Shown one piece after another: positions 1,885 through 37,584 of a stretch of DNA of 64,000 bases; the first letter of the stretch is position 1; each line of letters opens with the position of its first letter. Origin of the DNA: Clostridiales bacterium (GTDB taxonomy: Bacteria > Bacillota > Clostridia > Christensenellales > Borkfalkiaceae); contig SVHO01000002.1 of NCBI GenBank assembly GCA_015055725.1, positions 44,603-108,602 of the forward strand, in the 5' to 3' direction. The translations under genes and the position numbers were made by a program. The notes beneath the pieces were generated by a model, which saw only the letters and a program-made list of their open reading frames with translations, had not been told where the DNA came from and ran no database searches.

Positions 1885-2192
1885 CTTTAAAATAAAAAAC
1901 GCAAGTCTTACAACTTGCGAAGTAATCCCCGTAAACGATATAATCGGCTGACAAATCAACCCTTCGTTATAGGGAGTGGGTAATCAGAGTCTATATAGCA
2001 ACAAAACTTTTACTACTCTTTATTGACCGTTTCACAAGTTTAACTTATAAAATTTGAGCTTTTAACTCAATCAATAAGACGGTTTAATCCGTCAATCGGC
2101 AGTGGACCCGGCTGTCCGTATGGCCTAAACTCTATTAAGAGTGGTCCTTTATCGCTTGGAAAGACTCTGCTTTTATATAAAGTTCAATTCCG
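1885..2192 (-). ncRNA. Structured 5' leader (candidate riboswitch/attenuator) of potAB, class unassigned
   Basis: Closing helix CAGAGUCU/AGACUCUG (2162-2169 with 1985-1992), internal helices GGACC/GGUCC, GACGG/CCGUC, UUAUUGA/UCAAUAA, UUGAG/CUCAA, followed by intrinsic terminator CGCAAGU-UGUAAG-ACUUGCG-UUUUUUAUUUU. Confidence 0.6.
1891..1919 (-). terminator. Intrinsic terminator in potA leader
   Basis: 7-bp stem CGCAAGT/ACTTGCG plus T-rich tract on the minus strand, before the potA start. Confidence 0.75.
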
Positions 2193-22755: not shown

Positions 22756-23055
22756 TTACAACTTAATTTTGATGTCTACGCCTGCGGGCAAATGAATGCT
22801 GTCAAGAAGTTTTACGTTGGGCGAATAGATATCGATAAGTCTTTTGTGAGTTCTAATTTCGAATTGTTCGCGTGAATCCTTATATTTATGGGGCGAACGA
22901 AGAATCGTCACGATTTCCTTTTCGGTGGGTAGTGGAATAGGTCCACTAATCTTTGCGCCAGACTTCTTCATAGTTTCAACTATTTTAGACGCTGCTTGGT
23001 CAAGCATTTCCGTGTCGTAAGACATAAGCTTAATCCTAATTTTTTGACTTGCCAT
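22756..23055 (-). CDS. rpsJ: 30S ribosomal protein S10
   Basis: [43 protein letters not shown]. Confidence 0.97.
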
Positions 23056-23138
23056 TTTGTTTTCTCCTTTTTTTCTAACCTAACTTTTATTAACTGTGTG
23101 CGCTGTAAACTTTGCCGTGTGTGTCAATTTTTCTTAAT

Positions 23139-23186
23139 AAAAAAATCATTCGCCGATACTTAAATTTTCTAAGTCGCTGCGAATGA
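23139..23186 (-). terminator. Intrinsic terminator inside the S10 operon leader
   Basis: TCATTCGC (23179-23186) pairs with GCGAATGA (23146-23153) followed by T7. Confidence 0.7.
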
Positions 23187-23305
23187 CTTTACTAATTCAT
23201 ATTGAAGTTAGTCGCAGAGGTCTAGCCCCCACACTTGTCAACGGAAATTATCTATCGCTAGGCACGATTTAAGTAACTTCCCGTATCATCCCAGTTTACA
23301 CAGCC
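23139..23305 (-). ncRNA. Structured attenuator-like 5' leader of the S10 operon, class unassigned
   Basis: Consensus promoter followed by about 165 nt with competing helices GAAGUUA/UAACUUC, CUGCGA/UCGCAG and terminator UCAUUCGC...GCGAAUGA-UUUUUUU before rpsJ. Confidence 0.6.
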
Positions 23306-23310
23306 TATAT

Positions 23311-23339
23311 ATTATATAAAACGTTTTTAATATTGTCAA
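23311..23339 (-). promoter_or_regulatory. Full-consensus promoter of the S10 operon leader
   Basis: TTGACA - 17 nt - TATAAT on minus strand. Confidence 0.85.
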
Positions 23340-23432: not shown

Positions 23433-24662
23433 TTATGCTATTTGTTTTTTGATAAGCGTTGGTTTTGATTGCCCTGAAACCACGTTTTCATCAATAACAA
23501 CTTTTTCAATATTTTCCTCAGAAGGCAAATCGTACATAGTGTCAATCATAAGATTTTCTAAGATTGTACGAAGCCCCCTTGCCCCTGTTTTAAGTTCGAT
23601 TGCTTTTTTTGCAACAGCTGAAACAGCTCCGTCGGTTATTTCAAGTTCAACGTTATCAAGACCGATTAAGCGTTTATATTGTTTAACGAGCGCGTTTTTG
23701 GGTGCAGTCAAAATATTTACTAGTGCTTTTTCATCAAGTGCGTGAAGCCCAACCGTAATCGGAATTCGTCCAACGAATTCAGGAATAAGCCCATACTTAA
23801 TCAAATCTTGTGGTTGAACGTCACGAATAACGCTTGCGCCTTTTTCTTGCTTAGTTTCAACGTTTGCGGTAAATCCCAAAGAATTTGTACCTTTTCTCTT
23901 GGCAATAATATCTTCAAGGCCAACGAAAGCACCGCCACAAACAAATAGGATATTCGTAGTGTCTATTTTAATGCATTCTTGTTGGGGGTGTTTTCTTCCA
24001 CCTTGCGGGGGAACGTTAGCAACAGTACCTTCAATAATTTTTAAAAGCGCTTGTTGAACGCCTTCACCCGAAACGTCACGCGTGATAGAAACGTTTTCGC
24101 CCTTTCTTGCAATTTTATCAATTTCGTCAATATATATAATACCGCGTTGAGCCTTTTCAATATCAAAATCTGCATTTTGAATAAGTTTAAGCAAAATATT
24201 CTCAACGTCTTCACCAACGTATCCTGCTTCAGTAAGCGTAGTTGCGTCGGCAACGGCAAAAGGCACGTCTAATATCTTTGCAAGCGTTCTCGCAAGCAAA
24301 GTTTTTCCGCTACCCGTTGGCCCTAACACCAAAATATTGCTTTTATCAAGTTCAACTTCCCCTTCTATTTTAGGCGCGCTTATTCTTTTATAGTGATTGT
24401 AAACCGCAACGGATAAAACTTTTTTAGCTTCATCTTGCCCAACTATATATTCATCAAGTTTACTTTTGATTTCGGCAGGTTTTAAAAGATGAATTTCAGC
24501 CTTTGCATCCACTTTAGAATTATCTTCTTTCAAAACGTCTCTACAAATTTCAATACACTCGTTGCAAATAAATATTCCGTTAGGCCCTGCAATTAAGCGG
24601 TTAACAAGTTCCTTTGGCTTTCCGCAAAAGGAACAAAATAATTGTTCGTTATTATCTTTCAT
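23433..24662 (-). CDS. clpX: ATP-dependent Clp protease ATP-binding subunit ClpX
   Basis: Zn finger CSFCGKPK...[16 protein letters not shown]. Confidence 0.96.
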
Positions 24663-36870: not shown

Positions 36871-37134
36871 GCCGTGCTATGTGGGGAGTTAGCGATGCCC
36901 TGTAATCCGCAATTCGCTTAGCGGAGCAGAACGCTGATTGAGGCTTGTGTTGTGGAAGGTTGCGCGTGGTAAGGGGCGTTGATATTAAGGTCTTATGCAA
37001 CGCGTCCCCGCGAACCGTGTCAGAGTAGGAATACAGCAGCACTAAACGGTCAGGCGCGTGTGATATAAGGTTGCTTTGAAGGAGCCACCTGCCACGTTTC
37101 CACTTCGGCTACATCTGTCGATTTCAGTGCACGG
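36871..37134 (+). ncRNA. ffs: Large bacterial SRP RNA (Bacillus-type, with Alu domain)
   Basis: GCCGTGCTATGTGGGGAGTTAGCGATGCCCTGTAATCCGC...GAACCGTGTCAGAGTAGGAATACAGCAGCAC...GTGCACGG; matches recalled B. subtilis scRNA landmarks. Confidence 0.93.
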
Positions 37135-37150
37135 TTTTTTTGATTAAAAC

Positions 37151-37184
37151 GCGGTTTAGAAAAATCTAAACCGCTTTTATTTTT
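37151..37184 (+). terminator. SRP RNA terminator
   Basis: GCGGTTTAGA-AAAA-TCTAAACCGC-TTTTATTTTTT. Confidence 0.8.
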
Positions 37185-37194
37185 TGTTCTAAAT

Positions 37195-37229
37195 AAAAAA
37201 AATTGCCGTATCTAGTTGATACGGCTTTT
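37195..37229. terminator. Terminator downstream of tmRNA (bidirectional)
   Basis: GCCGTATC-TAGTT-GATACGGC with T-rich flanks on both sides. Confidence 0.75.
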
Positions 37230-37230
37230 T

Positions 37231-37584
37231 TGGTGGAGATGCGGAGACTTGCACTCCGGTCTTATACGCTTACATGAAATCTTCTACATACTTATCCGAA
37301 CGTTGATTTTAGTGGTGGGCTTGGTTATCGGCAACCACTGCCTACCCTTTGATTTATAAGTGCCGAATTTAAGGCTAAATCAAACCTTAAAAACCGTTCC
37401 CCGTCTAACTGACGCCTAACCCATTTCCAACGGGCGAAAAATGGGAAGACGTACGCTTAAATTAAGCAGCGTATGCTAATTCTTGATTGTTAGCATTTAA
37501 ATTTAATTTCCGTTTTAACGAAGCCGAGCCTTCGGTATGCTTATATCCCGTGCAACAACGCACAATCGAATCTATAACACCCCC
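37231..37584 (-). ncRNA. ssrA: tmRNA
   Basis: 5' GGGGGTGTTATAGATTCGATTGTGCG; 3' GGAGTGCAAGTCTCCGCATCTCCACCA; 7-bp acceptor GGGGGUG/CAUCUCC; tag ORF GCT AAC AAT CAA GAA TTA GCA TAC GCT GCT TAA (37462-37494). Confidence 0.95.

Follow-up and report, generated by a model that had tools for sequence, protein, structure and literature searches.

The leader between clpX and rpsJ

The window, by which we mean the whole 64,000-nt stretch of DNA analysed, from an uncultured bacterium of the gut belonging to Clostridia, carries on its minus strand a leader of ~250 nt situated between clpX, which ends at 23433, and rpsJ (23055-22756), with a promoter upstream and rpsJ downstream. Gene order after rpsJ is that of the usual S10-spc-alpha cluster, continuing to rpoA, and the leader precedes about 30 genes. 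The features are listed below in the order in which they would be transcribed.

23311..23339 (-): sigma-70-type promoter, TTGACA (23334-23339)-N17-TATAAT (23311-23316), lying past the clpX end; 12/12 match to consensus
23299..23304 (-): GCTGTG at the 5' end, either P0a or a candidate for the antiterminator, identical in 30/30 genus leaders
23237..23291 (-): predicted k-turn junction around P1, comprising a GAT bulge (23290-23288), GA (23287-23286), the opposite GA (23239-23238) and closing pair G23291-C23237; GA/GA in 99/99 sequences, closing pair covaries
23241..23284 (-): P1 hairpin, ACGGGAA (23278-23284)/TTTCCGT (23241-23247), with conserved internal loop GTTA/ATAA and an apical stem; covariation
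23214..23232 (-): P2 hairpin, GTGGGGG/CCTCTGC; 7/7 pairs changed on both sides in 99 sequences
23205..23211 (-): P4a strand CTAACTT, pairing with P4b; swap test z -9.6
23139..23186 (-): intrinsic terminator TCATTCGCAGCGACTTA..TAAGTATCGGCGAATGA plus T7, in which TCATTCGC (23179-23186) pairs with GCGAATGA (23146-23153); hairpin conserved in the genus
23102..23125 (-): module M (GACACACACGGCAAAGTTTACAGC), motif GAYACRCnCGR; 57 clusters
23080..23086 (-): strand P4b, AAGTTAG, immediately ahead of the Shine-Dalgarno; swap test and compensatory changes
23064..23069 (-): Shine-Dalgarno AAGGAG, from the sequence
22756..23055 (-): rpsJ (S10), leading the S10-spc-alpha cluster; ORF translation and genus-wide matches

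The original prediction described a structured S10-operon leader with a perfect promoter and an intrinsic terminator, preceding these ~30 genes and perhaps sensing a ribosomal protein. Conservation, covariation and the ORFs bear out the leader, its place and its parts, a ribosomal protein leader is plausible, the promoter is indeed a perfect consensus match, and every sequence element that it named was found where it had been placed. Moreover, other members of the genus have a promoter-like sequence at the equivalent place. Folding of the single sequence gave -45.1 kcal/mol (z -2.06 versus shuffles), a modest gain, and therefore conservation had to decide. In 31/31 same-genus genomes with a detected rpsJ, the 17 nt of the terminator 5' strand recur without change upstream of that gene; one further genome also has the 17-mer. 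In an alignment of 30 genus leaders GCTGTG, parts of P1, GACAA, GCGACTAAC, the terminator 5' strand, GACAC.CACGG and GTTAG are all invariant or nearly so. Searches of Rfam at both gathering and relaxed thresholds, a check named in the original prediction, gave only chance hits on the leader and no family matches it.

Elsewhere in the window, Rfam RF02440 (SpF59 sRNA / ldcC RNA) matches 2096-2147 (-) at 69.8 bits, well over the cut-off, directly upstream of a potA-like (polyamine uptake) ABC transporter ATPase gene (331-1959). A large-type SRP RNA (+) and a tmRNA (-) lie convergently within 36872-37584, with ~100 bases between them.

The P1/P2 core and long-range helices

A covariance model, R1, was made from 21 sequences of the genus and the order, and its alignment contains double changes in 13/17 pairs, exceeding all shuffles and slid controls. 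Of 200 order genomes 136 have an R1 match, as do 129 of 399 from the phylum, with rare exceptions one per genome, and rpsJ was recognised downstream in most of the loci fetched. Across 99 diverse sequences, 95.5% of P1/P2 cells are paired compared with 75.3% in shuffles, double-change cells number 350 compared with 81, and the covariation score is 0.646 compared with 0.250; having been fitted to the model, the alignment is biased towards it, and slid controls (0.10-0.14) agree. Unguided APC-corrected mutual information also returned P1 and P2 pairs as its top column pairs and ranked high the closing pair of the k-turn, which changes from G-C (59) to C-G (26). Thus P1 and P2 covary among related rpsJ leaders, as the original prediction had suggested a covariance model could reveal, and the leader is confirmed as a genuine conserved regulatory RNA structure.

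A kink-turn is defined (PMC5061560) by a bulge of 3 nt and then G.A and A.G pairs, with a canonical helix flanking the bulge on its opposite side. The P1 junction fits this definition, with the GA/GA residues invariant in 99/99 sequences, and we describe it as a predicted k-turn. Within the P1 internal loop there is also strong non-Watson-Crick covariation, from G.G (53) to A.A (41) at columns 24-86 of alignment A2, possibly marking a site of protein recognition or tertiary contact. Three order relatives (L031, L034 and L039) have an rpsJ leader seemingly lacking the P1 core, with module M kept upstream of rpsJ.

Pairings over longer distances were assessed by an alignment-free swap test, in which the duplex energy of native strands is compared with that of strands swapped between clusters, using 59 clusters of leaders with module M. 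The strand after P2 with the strand after M (P4) gave -13.3 native versus -10.0 kcal/mol swapped (z -9.6, 0/5000 permutations), and the 5' end segment with that immediately preceding M (P0) gave -9.7 versus -8.0 kcal/mol (z -5.8, 0/5000 permutations); composition and pairing are not fully separable in this statistic, and the weaker z values of the remaining segment pairs (+0.5 to -3.2) gauge the background. In L057, L061, L062 and L065, which belong to a sister genus within the family, P4 is CGAAC/GTTCG, and P1 of the same leaders retains GTTAC or GTTGC. Therefore, the conserved partner of the CTAACTT strand is the Shine-Dalgarno-proximal strand and not P1. P0 and P4 cross and, where both occur, would make a pseudoknot; P0 is supported in other families and is not clear within the window's own genus. 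Relative to the published text on S10 leaders available to us, the crossing helix P0 appears to be new.

Proposed attenuation, possible ligand and alternative explanations

By an automated search, the terminator of the window's genus, and that of L153, is a hairpin with an energy near -15 to -20 kcal/mol, plus a U-tract. Any terminator candidate at all was found in 43/85 leaders; candidates are weaker in other families, and about half of the leaders have none. Terminator strength and presence thus vary among families and therefore the expression platform is lineage-specific. Within the genus, the terminator pairing of the original prediction stands, with the 5' strand present in 30/30 leaders and hairpin and U-tract conserved. 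The 3' strand has wobble-type changes only (CGAATGA, CGGATGA and CGAGTGA) in the same leaders, and because the 5' strand is invariant while the 3' strand wobbles, the 5' strand is likely to be under some additional constraint, matching the expectation for an attenuator. With a stable hairpin and U-tract predicted upstream of the first gene, the leader would qualify as one.

In plain folding the terminator is the default, with a probability of 1.0. The candidate antiterminators have no comparative support. One such candidate, found by folding prefixes, pairs the 5' end of the leader with the terminator 5' strand, at 0.63 in 30 species versus 0.54 in 5'-shuffled controls and with z 0.4 in the swap test; it is not claimed here. 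The original prediction had instead drawn a switch of three mutually exclusive states: the terminator, an antiterminator CTGCGA (23212-23217)/TCGCAG (23177-23182) enclosing a CTAACTTC/GAATTAG hairpin, and an anti-anti-terminator GAAGTTA (23274-23280)/TAACTTC (23204-23210). All of these segments are present in the sequence and the three pairings do exclude each other on paper, and pairing of the P2 3' strand with the terminator 5' strand is marginal in the swap test (z -2.4). As functional states, however, the second and third pairings go unsupported. CTGCGA/TCGCAG has a probability near 0 in the folded transcript before the terminator closes, the enclosed hairpin is absent in 10/30 genus species, which lack the GAATTAG partner (L013, L016-L019, L021, L022, L024, L027 and L029), and the CTAAC strand covaries with GTTAG next to the Shine-Dalgarno, as described for P4, rather than with P1. 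We therefore regard a three-state switch of this design as very unlikely.

The leader had also been thought to match no described Firmicutes leader, which does not hold, as an 'S10 r-leader in Firmicutes' has been published. According to the available text of Eckert & Weinberg 2020 (PMC7247131), this family was set up by Yao 2007 and has numerous examples in Clostridia. Judging by where it lies in the genome, by the range of taxa that carry it and by the homology of its core throughout the phylum, the leader very probably belongs to this predicted family, as a Clostridia-type long form. It lies in the 5' UTR of rpsJ and the S10 operon, in Firmicutes and Clostridia, and has a conserved structure with covariation; like the published family it is structured, upstream of rpsJ, and, as far as the available text of PMC7247131 goes, without an established ligand. 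It differs in that the window's genus adds a strong intrinsic terminator, and neither the P0/P4 crossing nor relocation of M is mentioned in that text. The rpsJ motif RLC-47-1 from C. difficile, described in the available text of PMC11109978 from three genera of one family (Peptostreptococcaceae), is likewise a candidate ribosomal leader in the 5' UTR of the S10 gene. It is reported from that family only. The core of the window's leader also occurs in short leaders from various parts of the phylum, and in related ones such as L088 and L091 P1-P2 lies directly at the Shine-Dalgarno.

Two systems serve as functional precedents. L4 attenuates the S10 operon of E. coli, and the likeness lies in regulation of that operon through transcription ending early, and through translation, close to a hairpin of the leader; however, there is no match here above the gathering score of the Rfam model for the E. 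coli L4-binding leader, and the P1/P2/M consensus differs. The L10(L12)4 leader of rplJL in B. subtilis is also a k-turn-containing ribosomal protein leader acting by transcription attenuation, as an anti-antiterminator, yet it belongs to a different operon with a different ligand and Rfam L10_leader does not match the window's leader.

Our preferred explanation, to which we assign a probability of roughly 0.7, is that the leader is a Clostridia-type long form of the Firmicutes S10 r-leader which mediates ribosomal protein-dependent attenuation. Excess of a protein from the S10 operon would bind and stabilise the P1/P2 k-turn domain, the bound leader could then no longer keep the terminator 5' strand in a different pairing, and transcription would stop at 23139. 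When such excess is lacking, RNA polymerase would read on, P4 and M would form beside the Shine-Dalgarno and the ~30 genes would be expressed. From the E. coli precedent L4 is the most likely ligand, with a probability that nevertheless falls somewhat short of one half, and other products of the cluster, such as L24 or S17, are possible. Comparison of R1 with complete 16S and 23S rRNA of one order relative gave a best E of 0.22, and an internal-loop and motif search for rRNA mimicry gave no resemblance to a ribosomal protein site.

The leader might instead act mainly at translation, with P4 and M by the Shine-Dalgarno as the switch and the terminator as a secondary, genus-specific addition. 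The position of P4b just 5' of the Shine-Dalgarno would suit such a role, as would the many phylum relatives in which P1-P2 abuts the Shine-Dalgarno and the absence, in about half of related leaders, of a terminator candidate between P2 and M. Nonetheless, the invariant terminator 5' strand and conserved U-tract of the window's genus speak against it and we consider it improbable. We give less credence still to a constitutive structured 5' UTR, serving mRNA stability or transcription pausing with no ligand-dependent control: the null result for rRNA mimicry and a terminator that is the predicted default are what it would lead one to expect, but k-turn residues that do not vary and long-range helices that covary, in many families, exceed what stability needs. 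S10-spc-alpha is the largest ribosomal protein operon; the leader is widespread, yet no Rfam model matches it. The k-turn core, P4/P0 and M offer concrete elements for mutation and, together with a ready covariance model, a means of finding the ligand.

Module M and its two positions

In the window, M lies 3' of the terminator and just ahead of P4b. In most families GAYACRCnCGR is a hairpin motif, the stem of which is broken in the window's genus. Butyrivibrio, Fusicatenibacter and Kineothrix are among the named Clostridia in which the 3' form occurs. In Bacillus- and Paenibacillus-like genomes (L104, L150-L157, L166-L167 and L174-L179) M is inside the apical loop of P1, as GACACACCCGG or GATACACCCGA with ..GGCGTTGT or ..GAGTGTGT, and P2 continues straight into the Shine-Dalgarno. 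The genomes with nested M are presumably Bacillaceae, judging by the likeness of their S10 protein to that of B. subtilis. Long P1 inserts were at p < 0.02 versus shuffled inserts in 11/29 cases. M inside P1 was seen in none of the 85 Clostridia-type loci scanned.

We tentatively suggest, at a shade under even odds, that M has moved between two sites, the apical loop of P1 in Bacillus- and Paenibacillus-like genomes and the 3' end of the leader in Clostridia, including Lachnospiraceae. At the 3' end M would be clasped by P4 and adjacent to the crossing P0, and in both forms it would dock at the same site. Identity of the motif within the same leader points to a common origin for both positions; independent acquisition is a possible alternative. 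A conserved hairpin placed in this way appears to be new relative to the published text available, and the S10 leader is not mentioned in PMC10085705, which concerns permuted RNAs. If true, relocation of M would mean that a regulatory RNA has been permuted in nature in a non-circular way and, if it took place within one RNA class, would be a rare experiment of nature on how modular RNA is.

M was also considered as a DNA or promoter element, which was rejected since an extra upstream copy occurs in only 3/85 loci. Second copies upstream of the leader were observed 44 bases before the P1 match in L142 and at ~140 bases in L043 and L137. The copy in L142 overlaps a promoter (TTGACACACACGG..TATAAT), and in L238 M is found solely in such a promoter position.
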